A DNA stretch of 64,000 nt from Candidatus Methanohalarchaeum thermophilum. Lineage in GTDB: Archaea > Halobacteriota > Methanonatronarchaeia > Methanonatronarchaeales > Methanonatronarchaeaceae. The notes beneath the pieces are model-generated. The model saw nothing but the letters and a program-made list of their open reading frames with translations, had not been told where the DNA came from and did no database searches. Every line of letters starts with the position of its first letter. Within the stretch, counting starts at the first letter, position 1. The stretch spans positions 558,001 to 622,000 of the forward strand of contig MSDW01000001.1 in the NCBI GenBank assembly GCA_001914405.1, read 5' to 3'. The position numbers were made by a program, and so were the translations under genes. Positions 2,476-61,990 of this stretch are shown one piece after another.

Positions 2476-2884
<409 letters not shown>

Positions 2885-5764: not shown

Positions 5765-6153
5765 TAAACTGTAACCCTTTCCCGTACCTAATCAACTCCA
5801 CATTTTCCGTTTTCCCATACTCATAATGCTCGTAATCAATCTGAACATATCTTACATGGTTGAAAAAAACCCTCTTTAACCCAGCCTCGACACCATTTTT
5901 CTCCACAGTATCACCCCGGTTGCAGGTCATAGTGATCTGTGGGAACGCTCCTGCTTAAACAAGGTAAGTTCCCTAAGCCAACCGACAATTAAACTTCCTC
6001 TATGTGGCCTGGTCGTACCATACGCAAGCCCCTTCTAATCTTTGATTAGGTAGGGGTATTTGACACAGACAATTTTGTGTTTGCATGTTCCTTGGTTAAA
6101 GCAGGACACCCTCTCTTCACTAGCGAAAGGCGAGTAAGGTAGAGGTAGTTCAA
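5765..6153 (+). other. Intergenic element relic with RNA-like hairpins and a small reverse ORF
   Basis: It follows the right end of the preceding IS element. It contains a segment resembling the other gene-less elements (AAGGTAAGTTCCCTAAGCC near 5980, compare GTAAGTTCCCTTGC at 7.0 and 12.7 kb). It also has an internal family hairpin near 6032-6055 and a right end with GGTAGTTCAA at 6144-6153. A 56-codon ORF on the minus strand (5760-5930) is not recognised and is probably a relic or chance ORF. Likely a decayed family member. Confidence 0.5.
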
Positions 6154-6671: not shown

Positions 6672-7158
6672 TCTTTATCTATTTGACTGAGAAGACACCT
6701 TCCTAAATCTTTTGATTTAGGTGGGTGATGAATTGGAGTGATTTTATAGAGTTGGAGGCAGAAGACTCGTGTTCTTCAAGGGGCATGGGATGAATGCCTG
6801 TAATAACATTTGAATGATTTTGGAACTGAGTTAAGCTTTGGCTGTTAGGCGTTCTGCCTTATCAAACAAATGCGGGCCGATTTCTCTGTTTATTGGCTAA
6901 AGAAATCTCCCTAGGTAACCTTGAAACAGTTCTTGGAGTAGGGGGTTCTAGTGGTTGGTGTGGAGCAGCCGCTGAGGAATAGGGGGACCTCTCTATGGGT
7001 TGGTATATGGGCTTTGTGCCCTAATCCAATTCTTCCCTCAAAGCGTAAGTTCCCTTGCTTATTGGGTGTATGAGACAAGCCCAGTAGATAACGTAGACTC
7101 CGACTTGTATAAGGCCTCACAAGGAAGCTCACTCCCTTTAGAGAGTGAGCCACTTCAC
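6672..7158 (+). mobile_element. Gene-less structured element, family 2, copy 1
   Basis: The left end has the leader GACTGAGAAGACACC and an AT-rich hairpin (about 6695-6725). The right end is a GCTCACTC/GAGTGAGC hairpin ending CACTTCAC at 7158. The interior (about 6829-7130) is clearly related to 12443-12750: shared blocks include GGCTAAAGAAATCTCC, GGTAACCTTGAAACAG, GTGGTTGGTGTGGAGCA, GTAAGTTCCCTTGCT and AAGGCCTCACAA. Differences between the copies sit in loops or look paired, and no reading frame is kept. Read as a structured RNA with IS605-like ends. Confidence 0.7.
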
Positions 7159-7541: not shown

Positions 7542-8900
7542 GTGAACTACCTCTTCCTAAATTAAGGATTTAGGAGGGGGTTCCCTGTTCTACCACTTGA
7601 CTTACTGGAGCTGAATTGGTTCCATCAGAGGTCGATGTGTCCGAGGGCTTTGACTTTGGACAGTCCCTGTTTTACCAAGTCTATAGCTCTATTCACTATG
7701 TTTATAGCTGCGTTCAAGTCTCGGTCAATTTCCAGGCCGCATCTCTCACATTTGTGTACTCTATCTGATAGTTCTTTATCTACCTTATTACTATAACTTG
7801 GGTTTGAGCAGCTTTTTGTAGTGTTCCTTGCCTCTACTTCTATGATTTGCTTATCAGCTTGTGAAGCTTTGTAAGCAAGCAATGAAACAAACTCGTTCCA
7901 AGCGTGATTAGCTATATGTCTATTTAGGGCGTTGCTTCTTCCTCTGATAGGTTCTTACTATCTAAGGCTTCTACCGCTATTACATCGTATTTGTCGCTAT
8001 ATGCTCTTGATAGTTTATGTAAGAAGTCTCTTCGTGCATCTCTCAGTTTTTTGTGTGTTTTAGCTAATCTTTTCTTTTGTCTTTTTCAGTTGTTGCTTCC
8101 TTTTTCTTTCCTGGATAGTTTCTTTTGTTCTTTCTTGATTTTCTCGTATTTACTGTATAACAAGTCTTTTAAGTCCTCTATTTCTCTATCTTTACTATCA
8201 GTTAAGAAGTTGGATACGTTTAGGTCTATTCCTATTATGTCGCTGTCTTTTGTGATTGGTTTTTTGTCGGGTTTTGGAACTTTTAGTTGGAGTATGATTT
8301 TCGAGTCACCGCAACTGTATTCTTTTATTATAACTCCTTTGACCTCAGCGTTTTTAGGGATTGGTCTGTGGAAGTTTACGGGTATTTTTCCTTATCTTTG
8401 ATAGATGTATATTTCTTTTTTCTTGGTCTATTTTGAATCCTGACTGATTGTATTCAATGATATTAATCGAGTTCTTGTACCTTAACTTTCTAACCTTTTT
8501 TTCCTTTCTCTTTTTTTGTGTTTAGGCCTTTGATTGCGTTGTATATTCTTCCTATTGTTTGTTGAGCAGTCTTTGAATATACATTTTGGAACTCTGGGTT
8601 TGATGTCTTTTTCCACTCTGGTAACCTATTATACATCTTATACTTTTGGTATTTACTCATCTGATTTGTTTAATGTTTCTAGTGCCTTATTGTAAATGTC
8701 TTTGTGTATCTTGAAGTGCTTCATCAGTTCTTCCTTATCTTCCTTTGTTGGATTGGCATCGTATCTGTATGAAAGCGACTGTAAGCCCATCTTAAACCTA
8801 TTTATAGGTTCGTGGTTTAAAAGTATTGTAGGGGGTTGATGCATCTCGCTACTAAAATCAGAGATTTTGGAGAGAGGTCTTCTCAACTACTAAGATAAAA
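7542..8900 (-). mobile_element. IS1341-type element with decayed tnpB (minus strand)
   Basis: Read on the minus strand, the left end at about 8845-8900 has the leader TTTTATCTTAGTAGTTGAGA, the trailing GACC and an AT-rich hairpin. The right end at about 7542-7583 is a CCTAAATCCTTAATTTAGG hairpin followed by AAGAGGTAGTTCAC. The whole length between the ends is taken by a tnpB pseudogene. No tnpA. The ends match those of the solo hairpins and gene-less elements. Confidence 0.75.
7625..8790 (-). pseudogene. tnpB: tnpB pseudogene, full length but frameshifted
   Basis: The start is ATG at 8790 (MGLQSLSYRYDANPTKEDKE). Successive fragments in several frames reconstruct a complete TnpB. These are an N-terminal helical part, a RuvC-I region (IIGIDLNVSNFL), a RuvC-II region (VIAVEALDSKNL, with Glu in the expected place) and a zinc ribbon/RuvC-III part in 7625-7882 (CERCGLEIDRDLNAAINI). 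Stops and frameshifts occur near 8660, 8400, 8087 and 7930-7690. Unlike the intact copy at 13.3 kb it keeps the RuvC-II glutamate and the RuvC-III Asp, so it decayed by frameshift rather than active-site loss. Confidence 0.85.
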
Positions 8901-9406: not shown

Positions 9407-10039
9407 ATTAAAGTTATTAATTAAGTAAAATATCTTTTAGTGAAAGATATTTTTATTTTAGTGGTTGGGTAAGACCTCTCTTTTTTTATTAGAAAAAGGA
9501 TACATTCAACGTTTAGAAAGATTAGAACAATACTAGGGATATAACAAGTTTATCGGAAAGCCTGTGTACAAATATATTTATTTCTAAGGTTATGTAGGAA
9601 ATTATATGAGTATTCAAGGGTTTTTGGGAGTAATTCCTTATTAGCTATAAAGATGGAGGTCCTATGTGGTAGTACACTTTAACTCCATAGCATAATATCC
9701 AATCTTGTGTGGGAGGTTGGATGGTGTGAGGAGGTCTGCATTAAGGTAGTTATGAGGGTTTGGAGGCTTTTAATTTTTCTTTACTTTAACCTATTAACCA
9801 AGAAGTCACCTTCCAAAATCTTGATTTTGGTAGGTGAGGAGGTCACTTGGTAAAACTCTGTCCTTAGATAAAATAGAGTGTGAATAGATGTGGACTGATT
9901 CTTCTCTAGCGAAAAGCGGGTAGTTGGAGGAGAGTAGTTCATTAATGATTGAGTTTTGGCGGGGTCTTATTGCTGTAAACATTTTAGTTAGAAGTTAAGA
10001 AATTTTGTAGTAGATATTTTTCTTTTGGAAGGGTGTATG
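9407..10039. other. Intergenic region with family hairpins
   Basis: It holds a leader-like stretch near 9450-9500 (TTTAGTGGTTGGGTAAGACC), a solo hairpin at 9788-9846 and a further right-end-like hairpin at about 9895-9945 (CTTCTCTAGCGAAAAGCGGG, ending TAGTTCATT). The last resembles the right end at 6105-6153. No gene is supported. Confidence 0.5.
9788..9846 (+). repeat. Solo hairpin: leader of the 413-bp element joined to its right hairpin
   Basis: The leader CCTATTAACCAAGAAGTCAC is identical to that of the two 413-bp copies. It is followed not by their left hairpin but by the right hairpin and trailer (CCAAAATCTTGATTTTGG, then GAGGAGGTCAC). It is therefore an internal-deletion derivative, or the minimal mobile unit of the family. 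Confidence 0.75.
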
Positions 10040-10588: not shown

Positions 10589-10653
10589 TTTTATCTTATA
10601 GTGGTTGGATAAGACCCTTTCCTAATCTTTGATTTAGGTAGGGGTCACTTCAC
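10589..10653 (+). repeat. Solo family hairpin
   Basis: A compact 65-bp unit with the leader TTTTATCTTATAGTGGTTGG, then AAGACC, a CCTAATCTTTGATTTAGG hairpin and the trailer GGGGTCACTTCAC. It contains nothing else, so it shows the minimal form of the family: leader, one stem-loop, trailer. Confidence 0.7.
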
Positions 10654-12351: not shown

Positions 12352-12792
12352 TTTTATCTTGGTGGTTGAGAAGACCTCTCTCCAAAATCTCTGATTTTGG
12401 TAGAAGGATGAATCAACCACAAATTTCCAATGGTTCTAAGACCAGTTAAGTTTTGGCTGTTAGGTGTTCTGGCTTGAACAGATTACGAGGCCCCTTTGGA
12501 TTGTTTCATTTGGCTAAAGAAATCTCCTCAGGTAACCTTGAAACAGATCTGGAGTAGGGGTCCTAGGTGGTTGGTGTGGAGCAACCATTGAGGAATAAGA
12601 GTAGCCATTGTGTAGCTATGTAGCTAATATATGGGCTCTTGTATCTGCCCTAATCCAGTTTTCCTCAAACCGTAAGTTCCCTTGCTGACTGGGTCTATGA
12701 GACAAACACACTGAACAAGGCAACTCCACTCTGGATAAGGCCTCACAAAGAACCCCCTCCAAAATCCCTTGATTTAGATAGAGGTAGTTGAC
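12352..12792 (+). mobile_element. Gene-less structured element, family 2, copy 2
   Basis: The leader TTTTATCTTGGTGGTTGAGA and a hairpin at about 12375-12405 mark the left end. A CCAAAATCCCTTGATTTAG-type hairpin and GAGGTAGTTGAC at 12792 mark the right end. The interior shares many blocks in order with 6829-7130, with a variable GGGC/GCCC-closed hairpin of different length in the middle. There are no ORFs of note. A GTGAAGTGACC segment with spacer at 12309-12351 precedes it and may be part of a compound unit. Confidence 0.7.
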
Positions 12793-13161
12793 TATTGGCA
12801 GAAGAGATTTTTGTGTGGTAGGAAGGAGGTAAAAGGTGTTAATAAACTCTTTTAAGGTGAATCTATGTTTTTTTAGGGGGGAGAATGGTTCACAACCTAT
12901 TTTGTTGGGGGAAATAACTATGTGGAATAAGAATAATATGATTAAAAGGTGATTGGTTAGGTATCTCTGAGATAGTTGATTTTTGATTCTATAGGTTTTT
13001 CAGAGATATTTGCTAAAAGGTTTAGGGGATGTTTTTTCTTTGAAATCTATTTAACTTTTTTTTGGTGAGAAATCCCTGTCCTTAATCTTTGATTTAGGTT
13101 AGGGATGAATCACCACAAGATGTATATAAGTAGTTAAATAATGTTTATATAGGAGATATAT

Positions 13162-13302
13162 ATGGAAGACCCGACAACCATACAGATAGAAAAAGAAACA
13201 CGGAAGAAACTCAAGGAACTAAGGATAACAAAGAGAGAAACATACGACGAAATATTAAATAGGTTGATGAAAAATGCAACTAACTCAAAAAATAAAGATT
13301 GA
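13162..13302 (+). CDS. Small ribbon-helix-helix-like protein overlapping tnpB
   Basis: A 46-residue ORF: a strand-like start (TTIQIEKETRKKLKELR) and a helix-turn-helix continuation (TKRETYDEILNRLMKN). This matches the pattern of small ribbon-helix-helix repressors (strand, helix, turn with T/S, helix). A good ribosome site (AGGAGATATAT) sits just upstream. Its end overlaps the tnpB start by 29 bases in another frame, so the two are likely translationally coupled. A comparable small ORF precedes the broken tnpB at 4.5 kb. Likely a DNA-binding regulator of the element (inference). Confidence 0.65.
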   Translation: MEDPTTIQIEKETRKKLKELRITKRETYDEILNRLMKNATNSKNKD

Positions 13303-14554
13303 GCCAACAGAAGAACAAGAAGAAGTTCTTACTTCTCTTTCTGAAATATGTAGGTTGCTCTATAATTTTTCACTCAAAGAAAGAATAGAGAACTGGAAAG
13401 AAAACAAGAACAAACCAAAAGAAGAAAGAAACTACATTACATACACAGACCAACAAAATAAGTTACCCAAATTAAAAGAAGAATACCCAAAATACAACTG
13501 GGTGTATTTAAAAGTCTTACAAATGATTTTAAAGAAACTGGACGCCAATTACAAGTCCTTCTTCTCTCTATGGAAAAAAGGAGACAATAAAGCGAAACCA
13601 CCAAGATTCAAAGGCAGTAAATACTTCACAAACCTATGCTATAACCAATCCGGGTTCAAAATAAAAAAAGAGGAAATAAAATTTTCTCACAACCACCCAG
13701 ACAAAACAGAACTATCTTTTGATATTCCAACCAAGTTTCATTTAGAAGATAAGAACATTAAACAAATCGAAATCTTCAGAGACGAAATTAAAGAAGAATA
13801 CTATATCTCAATATCTTACGAGGTAGATACTCCAAAATACAAAGATAACGGAAAGTATCAAGCTTTCGATTTAGGAGTTAACAAACACATAGGAGTTAAT
13901 ATGAGTGGGAAGTTCGTTGAGTTCAAGAACCCAAGACCAGACAAGTATTGGCAATCGAAAATAGAAGAAGTTCAATCAAAAAAAGACAGATGTAAAAAAG
14001 GAAGTAATAGATGGAAATGGTATAACAAGAAATTACAACAGATGAAAAGAAAACTTGCTAATCAAATGAAGGATTGGCAACATAAATTAAGTAAAAAAAT
14101 AGTTGAGAACACTAAAGCGAATACTATAGTAGTTGGAGATTTAGATACTAAAGATATGGCACAGAACAACAAGAATGTAGAGGGCTTGAACAGGAGTTTA
14201 CAAAACACAGGCACCATAGGTAGATTCGTTAGATTTCTAATCTACAAGGCAGAACTTGTAGGTAAGAAGGTAATAGAAATCAACGAAGCAAACACTACCA
14301 AAAAGTGCTGTGTCTGTGGAAAGAAACAGGATATGCCATTACATAAAAGAACTTATAAATGTGATTGTGGAAACGAAATTGACAGAGACAAAAACTCTGC
14401 TATCAATATAATGAATCGTTTCCTATCACAAGAACGCTCTGTGAACGAGCAATCTTCCTTTATGGAAGATTTTCTGCGACAAACAGGTTTGGAATACGCC
14501 AACCAGCAAATGTCCAAACACTCGCAGGAAACCCCTTCCTCACGAACAACGTGA
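13274..14554 (+). CDS. tnpB: TnpB, RNA-guided nuclease of an IS1341-type element
   Basis: A 426-residue protein, full length for the family. The N-terminus (MQLTQKIKIEPTEEQEEVL) is a typical TnpB start. RuvC-I is QAFDLGVNKHIGVN (Asp near residue 199). The RuvC-II region is TIVVGDLDTKDM, where the usual catalytic Glu is Gly. The zinc ribbon has CCVCGKK and YKCDCG, directly followed by RuvC-III NEIDRDKNSAINI (Asp). Some TnpB clades keep the second acidic residue at a displaced site, so this copy may be active with a rearranged site, or nuclease-dead. The 3' end overlaps the right-end hairpin, consistent with omegaRNA processing from the tnpB transcript. Confidence 0.93.
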   Translation: MQLTQKIKIEPTEEQEEVLTSLSEICRLLYNFSLKERIENWKENKNKPKEERNYITYTDQQNKLPKLKEEYPKYNWVYLKVLQMILKKLDANYKSFFSLWKKGDNKAKPPRFKGSKYFTNLCYNQSGFKIKKEEIKFSHNHPDKTELSFDIPTKFHLEDKNIKQIEIFRDEIKEEYYISISYEVDTPKYKDNGKYQAFDLGVNKHIGVNMSGKFVEFKNPRPDKYWQSKIEEVQSKKDRCKKGSNRWKWYNKKLQQMKRKLANQMKDWQHKLSKKIVENTKANTIVVGDLDTKDMAQNNKNVEGLNRSLQNTGTIGRFVRFLIYKAELVGKKVIEINEANTTKKCCVCGKKQDMPLHKRTYKCDCGNEIDRDKNSAINIMNRFLSQERSVNEQSSFMEDFLRQTGLEYANQQMSKHSQETPSSRTT

Positions 14555-14627
14555 GCTAGGTAGGGGTAGTTCACTGCTTTTGTATTTATAAAGGATGAAT
14601 AAAGATCTATTGAATGGAGATAAAAAA

Positions 14628-23939: not shown

Positions 23940-24061
23940 GTGAAGTGACCTCTATCTGAATCAAGGATTTAGGAGGGGTCTTCTCAACCACTAAGATAAA
24001 ACTCCTAAGTGGAGAAGGATCATGTTGGGAAGCTTCTTCCTTTAGGAAGAGATCACTTCAC
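23940..24061. repeat. 122-bp palindromic element with GTGAAGTGA/TCACTTCAC ends
   Basis: The left half (23940-24001) is a solo hairpin read on the minus strand: trailer GTGAAGTGACC, stem, then the leader complement TTCTCAACCACTAAGATAAA. The right half is a plus-strand right end with the hairpin TTCTTCCTTTAGGAAGA and the trailer GATCACTTCAC. Together they make terminal inverted repeats. It sits 28 bases before mnhE. Confidence 0.65.
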
Positions 24062-40943: not shown

Positions 40944-41729
40944 ATAAACATATCTGTATGTAGAAGATATAGTGACCATATAATCAGGGCAATTCACTAT
41001 TTTTTCTTTTTCTTTTTCTTTTAATAGGAAAATTGATTCATAGTACATGCTTGTGAATGGTTTCTCTCTATCTGCAATAAAAGAGAGGTCATGTGAAGCA
41101 ACTCCTATCTAAAATCAAAGACTTGGGAGGGGTTTTTCATTACCACTAAGATAAAAGTATTATGTTAAGACCTGGTTTTTATCATGTCGTGGTCGCTAAG
41201 ACTCTGCCCTATAGGATAGAGAGGATGTCACTGACCCAATTTAGTTCTTTTATAAAATTAAATGAAGAGTAGTTCATTACCCTAATGTCTCTAGATTTTT
41301 TGGAAAAATATGTTTTTACAAAAACCAAAAGTAATAGGGTCCCTAGGTGATACGATGACTATTTTTAGTTAAATTTGGACAAAAATAGTAGATTTAAGTT
41401 TATTTTAGATTTTGTAGTAATTTAATTTTTTTAGAGTAATAGAGGAAGAATCTAGGAGTTTTTAATGAATTGGCCTGTTAGTTGGTAAATCAAATAATTT
41501 TGGTTAGTGCTTTTGGCATATAAAAGTTATAAAGTTATCAAAAGAGTTTAGGGAAGATGGGGATAAGAAAGATATAGCTCAAATTCGTTGAGATCCTTCA
41601 GACTGTAAGAGATTTTGGGGAGATTAGAGGGTTATGTCTAAAAGCTGGGTTTAGTCAAATGTTAATTAAAAAATTAATGATTTTGGGTTAAAGTAAGCTT
41701 GTTTTTAATCTTTAATGAATTTATATAAT
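40944..41729. other. Intergenic region with family hairpins
   Basis: It contains a hairpin near 41060-41090 (CTCTCTATC...AAAGAGAG) and the repeat described at 41093-41231. The remainder, about 41290-41730, is AT-rich with no gene I can support; the T-rich run right after atpD (41000-41020, TTTTTCTTTTTC) could end transcription. Confidence 0.45.
41093..41231. repeat. Compound hairpin repeat of the IS605-like family
   Basis: The left half is a solo hairpin on the minus strand: GTGAAGCAACTCC, the stem CTAAAATCAAAGACTTGGG, then TACCACTAAGATAAAA, the complement of the family leader. The right half is a plus-strand right end with a GCCCTATAGGAT hairpin and the trailer AGAGGATGTCAC, similar to the end of the element at 5764. 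The head-to-head arrangement resembles the unit at 23940-24061. Confidence 0.6.
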
Positions 41730-56883: not shown

Positions 56884-57249
56884 ATGGTGGATGAGGAGAA
56901 AGTAAAAAAACTGCTGAGCAAGCTAAAGTACATGTACTATAAAACCGAATTAGATGGACGAGAAGTTGAGTTTGAGGAGTTTTTAGAAGGTTTAAGTGAA
57001 GGAGAAAGTTTTAAAGGAGTTATACATACTGAAACTGAAGTTAAAGAAAATAACAAAATAAGAGATGGCTATATTCTTATTGATGAAGGAGAGATTAAAC
57101 TCGTTATTTTTATGGGAAAAGATATTTATTATGGTTCTGAAGCATTAGATATGATAAAAAATCCTGATAAAATAAATTACACTCGTCTAAAGGAAAGCAA
57201 GAAAGAAGAAATTCTTAAAAAAGCCAGAGATGCTGGCATTCTTTTCTAA
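56884..57249 (+). CDS. Hypothetical protein, 121 residues (possible DUF2226-like)
   Basis: A 121-residue, acidic protein. The middle SFKGVIHTETEVKENNKIRD and DGYILIDEGEIKLVIFMGKD resembles the beta-rich domain of DUF2226-type archaeal proteins, which I cannot confirm. It begins two bases after the preceding stop codon, so it is coupled. The last codons lie within the 63-bp tandem repeat. Confidence 0.55.
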   Translation: MVDEEKVKKLLSKLKYMYYKTELDGREVEFEEFLEGLSEGESFKGVIHTETEVKENNKIRDGYILIDEGEIKLVIFMGKDIYYGSEALDMIKNPDKINYTRLKESKKEEILKKARDAGILF

Positions 57250-57358
57250 TTGAAGGGCTTATCTATCAAAGATTCTTTTTTTTATATGGACATATCTGGC
57301 ATTCTTTTCTAATTGAAGGTATTATTTATCAAGGATTCTTATTTTTATATGGACCTAT
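57233..57358 (+). repeat. 63-bp tandem duplication covering gene end and TFB leader
   Basis: Two head-to-tail copies of a 63-bp unit starting CTGGCATTCTTTTCTAATTG (57233 and 57296). Copy 1 includes the last codons of the upstream hypothetical gene; copy 2 ends at the TFB start codon. Each copy carries a TTTTTTATATGG-like stretch. The TATA of copy 1 is placed for a leader of about 45 bases. Confidence 0.75.
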
Positions 57359-61257: not shown

Positions 61258-61670
<413 letters not shown>

Positions 61671-61751: not shown

Positions 61752-61793
61752 GTGAAGTGACCCCCCAGCAAGCTGTGGGGGTCTCTCCTTCAC
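61752..61793. repeat. GTGAAGTGACC...TCCTTCAC solo hairpin with GC-rich stem
   Basis: GTGAAGTGACC opens the unit, a GC-rich stem follows (GACCCCCCAGC / GCTGTGGGGGTC), and CTCCTTCAC closes it. It is a short member of the family, about 80 bases after the 413-bp copy; it could also act as a terminator. Confidence 0.5.
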
Positions 61794-61934
61794 TCTACTA
61801 TAGAAAGATTGTTTCATAAGAGATATTTAAAAGATAATAAAGATCTAGTTCTAATGAATAACTTAAATTTAGTATAAATGGAGTATATGTTTAATTTGGT
61901 TGATTTTCCGGTAGATTTGTTTTGGAGTTAATTC

Positions 61935-61990
61935 TAGTGCCAAGGAGTCTCCTTTCTTAATCTTTGATCTGGGTAGGTGGGGATGTCACT
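61935..61990 (+). repeat. Solo family hairpin before the MBL gene
   Basis: GTGCCAAGGAGTCTCC, an imperfect CTTAATCTTTGATCTGGG stem and the trailer GGGGATGTCAC. It resembles the solo unit at 10589-10653, but with an atypical leader. Confidence 0.5.

Follow-up and report, generated by a model that had tools for sequence, protein, structure and literature searches.

In Haloquadratum, palindrome-associated transposable elements (PATEs) occur together with 52-bp "terminal-only" forms, which Dyall-Smith et al. (2011, PMC3119063) described as products of repeat-mediated deletions that run from one near-terminal palindrome of an IS605-type element to the other. IS200/IS605 elements that carry both TnpA and TnpB, such as IS608 and ISDra2, combine a Y1 TnpA bearing an HUH motif and a catalytic Tyr with subterminal hairpins, a short target at the left, and a tnpB gene with a guide RNA at the right end. 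In Halobacterium salinarum, the guide (omega) RNAs of TnpB comprise a right-end hairpin and a pseudoknot in which a hairpin loop pairs with a motif at the transposon end (PMC12558985). In REP/RAYT systems (PMC3733652), short palindromes are mobilised by a REP-associated tyrosine transposase.

A 64,000-nt stretch of the genome of Candidatus Methanohalarchaeum thermophilum (hereafter, the window) contains, at 10595..10653 on the forward strand, a 59-nt unit that lies after TTTTTTAT and consists of the leader CTTATAGTGGTTGGATAAG, one hairpin, and a trailer ending in GTCACTTCAC. Genes such as Cdc48 mark the host as archaeal. Units of this one-hairpin type, which we refer to as solos, are like the terminal-only PATEs of Haloquadratum walsbyi (the HqIRS46 core deletion and an ISHwa23 derivative; PMC3119063) in that a fused left end (LE) and right end (RE) surround one palindrome within ∼52–60 nt, the target is not duplicated, the targeting oligonucleotide is kept at the left, the parents are both non-coding and tnpB-bearing, and the host is a halophilic archaeon. 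Unlike them, the solos have other sequences, occur in another class (Methanonatronarchaeia), follow TTTAT or TTTAA, form more subfamilies with about 100 extrapolated copies, and have parents that include probable guide-RNA-only elements. The Y1 TnpA with HUH and Tyr, the subterminal hairpins, and the short left target recall IS608 and ISDra2, as does the tnpB with a guide RNA at the right end of the parent elements, but the solos retain a single hairpin and no gene. Every testable feature of terminal-only PATEs is present in the solos, for which these PATEs are the closest described kind, and the solos are a real and well-populated instance of it. We consider it very probable that a solo derives from an IS200/IS605 element as its terminal-only form, most likely produced by deletion between the LE and RE hairpins and mobilised, now or once, in trans by a Y1 TnpA as a PATE.

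The hairpins of this family are of three kinds with a common core. An LE consists of TTTAT or TTTAA followed by CTTAGTGGTTGA, GAAG, the stem, GATGAA, and TCAACCAC, and its outer arms match as well (GGTTGA/TCAACC, TTGGTGA/TCACCA). An RE consists of GGAAGC, the stem, and a trailer that ends in GTCACTTCAC, GTAGTTCAC, GTAGTTGAC, GAGGTCAC, or GAAGTCAC. A solo, mostly 54–60 bp long, has the LE leader after TTTAT or TTTAA, one hairpin, and an RE trailer ending in TTCAC, TTGAC, or GTCAC. The inner stem is maintained through compensatory changes in its arms, which covary as 48 distinct pairs (e.g., CCTAAATC/GATTTAGG, CCAAAATC/GATTTTGG, and CCTAATC/GATTAGG). LE and RE differ in sequence, lie in direct orientation, and have subterminal hairpins and no terminal inverted repeats; the terminal inverted repeats and target duplication of a classical (DDE) MITE are both absent. 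The features found are those of IS200/IS605 elements, namely insertion without duplication on the 3′ side of a short, fixed target (TTTAT or TTTAA), differing LE and RE with subterminal hairpins, and a TnpA with HUH and one catalytic Tyr, together with that of terminal-only PATEs, a non-coding unit whose ends are homologous to an IS605-type element of the same genome.

The initial annotation had treated the anchor and several other places in the window as copies of one unit. Leader, AT-rich stem, and trailer do recur, in five solos; the places listed are otherwise a mixture that includes one LE and orphan RE-like hairpins. Besides the anchor, the solos are located at 9790..9846 (forward strand, after TTTAA), in which sequence comparison reveals an alpha LE leader joined to an alpha RE hairpin and trailer; at 23940..23995 (reverse strand, 56 nt, trailer GTCACTTCAC); at 41093..41150 (reverse strand, 58 nt, trailer GTTGCTTCAC); and at 61933..61989 (forward strand, diverged leader, trailer GGATGTCAC). 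The second halves of 23940–24061 and 41093–41231 turned out to be separate right-end hairpins. What had been taken as a copy at 8845–8900 is the LE hairpin (8834..8894, reverse strand) of a 1.35-kb element, whose RE hairpin lies at 7542..7585 on the same strand, ends in GTAGTTCAC, and is separated from the LE by the remnants of a broken tnpB. A GC-stem hairpin with GTGAAG/CTTCAC arms at 61752–61793 lacks the LE leader and is either an orphan RE or a symmetrical relic. We also noted a 63-nt stretch in two tandem copies (90%) at 57233–57358, adjoining an ORF.

About ten further members in the window had been missed. Two are non-coding alpha elements on the forward strand: that at 2476..2884 contains an LE, a structured RNA, and an RE, and its terminal GGTCAC pairs with the loop GTGACC at 2674–2679; the second, at 61262..61670, is 98% identical in the LE-side 300 nt and has its loop GTGACC at 61460–61465. 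Two are gamma elements, also on the forward strand. The copy at 6679..7158 has an LE, an RNA cargo, and an RE ending in GCCACTTCAC, and its loop GTGGAG (6960–6965) pairs with CTTCAC; the copy at 12358..12792 has exchanged its RE for another (GTAGTTGAC), and the end-loop pairing has therefore been lost. A tnpB-only IS200/IS605 element occupies 13055..14574 on the forward strand, with its LE at 13055–13116, its RE at 14527–14574 ending in GTAGTTCAC, a loop GTGAAC at 14441–14446 that pairs with GTTCAC, and a tnpB of the RNA-guided endonuclease family (OrfB_IS605, Cas12f1-like TNB domain) at 13274..14554. A further RE lies near 6026. The relatives that explain the anchor are within the window: this tnpB element, one broken tnpB element, and four non-coding LE–RE elements.

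A profile built from copies of the unit was run on the window, on a 1.65-Mb sample of the 2.14-Mb genome (one genome of the species), and on a reversed-sequence control. It found 17 matches in the window and 462 related hairpins in the sample (∼0.28 per kb, or ∼600 when extrapolated genome-wide); the control gave none in 864 kb. The sampled hairpins comprise 179 LE, 118 RE, and 74 solos, with 90 unclassified or uncertain; as to the suggestion that a 65-bp unit alone is enough, solos exist at 74 places, five of them in the window. With the anchor unit as the query, blastn returned 42 matches within its own genome. A second genome of the same family, from a sister genus, gave 37 matches and contains solos as well as relatives of alpha and gamma, while the remaining 19 genomes of that search had no copies. 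No copies were found among other genomes of the class and phylum (up to 58 searched) or among the viral contigs and phages searched, and the sole named genome that carries the exact leader is that of archaeon SCG-AAA382B04, which appears to be the sister genome.

The composition of the solos is that of fused ends. In addition to the alpha fusion at 9790, in solos of the ATTTGACTGA type the left arm, CCTAAATC, is that of an LE and the right arm, GATTAGG, which leads to GTAGTTCAC, is that of an RE; 18 solos with a CTATTTGACTGAGAAGACACC-like leader mostly have an LE-type left arm and an RE-type right arm ending in GGTAGGGGTAGTTCAC; and the solo at C1:988815 is the same type of fusion for a tnpA–tnpB kind of element. 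The left boundary reads T(T/A)A(T/A), mostly TTTAT, in all 39 solos measured. The search pattern accounts for part of this, but for neither the T at −5 nor the free right flank. At C1:936411 a solo lies inside a gamma element, and intact gamma copies provide the empty site, reading CAGTTTATTTGGCTT across the junction and running through CAGTTTAT|TTGGCTT. Because these copies are uninterrupted at the site, 56 nt were added exactly after TTTAT and nothing was duplicated. Copies of tnpB are likewise disrupted by one beta and one gamma element, and tnpB paralogues, in their best alignments, run across these sites with 0–2 gaps. For the solo at C2:305541 a possible empty site was set aside, as its left-hand homology extends over only about 16 nt.

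Since the LE and RE hairpins are nearly identical, a deletion from one to the other would generate a solo with the loss of everything between them. TnpA would bind the hairpin in single-stranded DNA, with cleavage following TTTAT or TTTAA on the left side and following a terminal TTCAC, TTGAC, or GTCAC on the right; the one-hairpin unit could then be moved in trans, and solos would move as solos. It is quite conceivable, if somewhat short of an even chance, that the solos are instead dead footprints: a full element inserted, its LE and RE hairpins then underwent recombination or replication slippage, and the 56-nt form never transposes. The two hairpins have identical tracts, such as ATCTTTTGATT, which would give the same hybrid each time, and core deletion mediated by repeats has been observed between Haloquadratum strains (PMC3119063). 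Core deletion in situ after insertion of a full element would also leave the same empty site as insertion of a solo. In keeping with such footprints, the solos form no distinct cluster, since their left halves are no more alike mutually than they are to LEs (permutation p = 0.32), so that this comparison gives no sign of independent amplification of solos. Also weighing against the PATE reading is that most tnpA copies are broken. Against them stand the abundance of solos, 74 as compared with few intact coding parents, and the ATTTGACTGA subfamily, with 18 solos to 12–18 LEs; the authors of PMC3119063 also suspected that a 52-bp form is mobile. The solos show that an IS200/IS605 element can be reduced to one hairpin and two cut sites and yet occur at many separate places. 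This raises the question of whether TnpA, which is believed to bring two ends together, could also work on a substrate with a single hairpin, in the way that RAYTs act on REPs.

The initial annotation had viewed the unit as a REP-like palindrome spread by a Y1 transposase (TnpA/RAYT) encoded outside the window. The Y1 link was borne out: its own genome has 24 matches to PF01797 (Y1), several with an intact frame and most broken, and tnpA genes carry the same LE directly upstream, one of them intact (C1:1551317) and several broken. A further intact tnpA, at C1:452514, has a related LE. Both intact TnpAs contain the HUH motif (DHTHIIF, DHIHILF) and the catalytic Tyr (QLKQYVENQ, QLKEYVEAQ), and the closest solved chains, 2xm3 and 2a6m, are IS200/IS605 TnpAs. 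The sister genus has a complete LE–tnpA–tnpB–RE element (L129) with tnpA between directly oriented LE and RE. The REP/RAYT part of the proposal fared differently. As in REP/RAYT systems (PMC3733652), the units are short, palindromic, one-hairpin, intergenic, and present in high copy number, with a Y1 transposase in the genome; unlike in those systems, the enzyme is an IS200-type TnpA, LE and RE are distinct rather than inverted REP pairs, each with its own cut site, and no RAYT is found. The equivalog test contradicts it, as TnpA scores 121.8 against the IS200/IS605 model NF033573 (cut-off 55) but 28–34 bits (33.5 included) against the RAYT model NF047646, whose cut-off is 80. Most units have GAAG at the 5′ foot of the palindrome, with no GTAG or CGTC tag, and GTAG occurs only 3′ of the stem in one RE class. 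We have rejected this explanation as highly improbable. Equally hard to credit is the notion that these are not mobile DNA but hairpins that the host retains for regulation or as terminators, to which the absence of all 371 classified hairpins from ORFs of at least 150 aa might point, a count that is partly circular because insertion breaks the frame; the LE/RE anatomy and the precise insertions into other mobile elements and into tnpB genes, for which paralogues show the empty site, speak against it.

The more interesting part is the system that surrounds the solos and that probably includes guide-RNA-only elements. LE and RE pair at fixed spacings; some pairs enclose tnpB and many are non-coding. 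The non-coding pairs belong to alpha, beta, or gamma, families with lengths of ∼410, ∼320, and ∼430–480 bp, respectively. Counting copies that reach at least 60% of the length, the 1.65-Mb sample contains 38 of alpha, 29 of beta, and 106 of gamma (∼173 near-full together). A different, nearly uniform non-coding family of ∼400 bp, with the left end CATCTTTTCACCTCAAGGAGACTCC and the right end GTAGTTGAC, occurs at C1:449775–450192, C2:62341–62754, C2:306996–307409, and C2:328312–328727. At C1:503513, a beta element with a truncated left end lies only some bases past the RE of a tnpB element (GTAGTTCAC|TCTGTCAAGAAG), possibly an end-to-end insertion.

The cargo of alpha and beta folds far better in the LE-to-RE sense than in the antisense (−97 vs −66 kcal/mol for alpha and −87 vs −55 for beta; gamma, −47 vs −43), and all three fold better than column shuffles, with z values of about −13, −7, and −13 for alpha, beta, and gamma, respectively. 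Of 27 alpha copies, 85% allow the six terminal bases, GGTCAC, to pair with the hairpin loop GTGACC (12% for the next-best column); of 68 gamma copies, 69% allow CTTCAC to pair with the loop GTGGAG (3% for the next-best column). The corresponding pairing of beta, GTCAC with GTGGC, extends over 5 bp and is seen in 74%; an LE-leader column reaches 73%, and the case for beta is therefore weaker. As a positive control, many tnpB elements of the same genome show end-loop pairing, often in hairpin loops 83–135 nt from the end and with matching changes (GTTCAC/GTGAAC, TGTCAC/GTGACA or GTGGCA, GTTGAC/GTCAAC, TGTCAA/TTGACA, and AGTCAG/CTGGCT). Across eight classes, 2 of 40,320 permutations reached the pairing of each class with its own end, a figure that is not an independent test because the loops were chosen with pairing in view. 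In the window the pairing is kept in both alphas, one gamma, and the tnpB element.

Taken by their sequences, the alpha, beta, and gamma elements look like guide-RNA-only elements. What appears to be new here is the combination of LE and RE with a putative sense-strand RNA whose loop would pair with the last 5–6 nt of the element. They resemble the H. salinarum omega RNAs in the right-end hairpin and the putative loop-to-end pairing, and differ from them in having no tnpB and matching no Rfam family. None of the tnpB elements checked carries the RNA or the end motif of any of these three families, nor was a cognate TnpB found among them; if these are guide RNAs, they would thus act in trans or their TnpB has been lost. 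We also considered whether the gamma cargo might represent the 3′ part of the tnpB element at C1:1500470 and rejected this, as that element is inserted beside a gamma fragment. We give about even weight, for and against, to a broader proposal, that ∼200 guide-RNA-only transposons (alpha, beta, and gamma) combine IS200/IS605 ends with a TnpB-type guide RNA and no protein gene, use TnpA and TnpB in trans, and take as guide the DNA 3′ of each insertion, with the 56-nt solos as the last step after loss of the guide RNA. Were this so, TnpB could be directed by a single archaeal genome to ∼200 sites, each determined by the place at which an element has landed. A literature search of partial coverage returned no paper in which PATEs bear guide RNAs. 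IscB, however, provides known cases of guide RNAs that lack a nuclease gene, and bacterial IS605-type elements that are non-coding and have guide RNAs may already have been described; we therefore make no claim of first discovery.

Rfam gave no match at gathering score in the window and none for the sister-genus copies, and its single sub-threshold match on gamma was at chance level. Elsewhere in the genome, sub-threshold matches to HEARO, the IscB guide RNA, occur at C2:305927–306195 and C2:121767–122049 (L151 and L152; E = 2e-7 and 6e-7); each lies a short way upstream of a broken IscB (RRXRR) gene. These two HEARO-like loci have sequence in common with the non-coding LE–RE element at C1:464083–464618.
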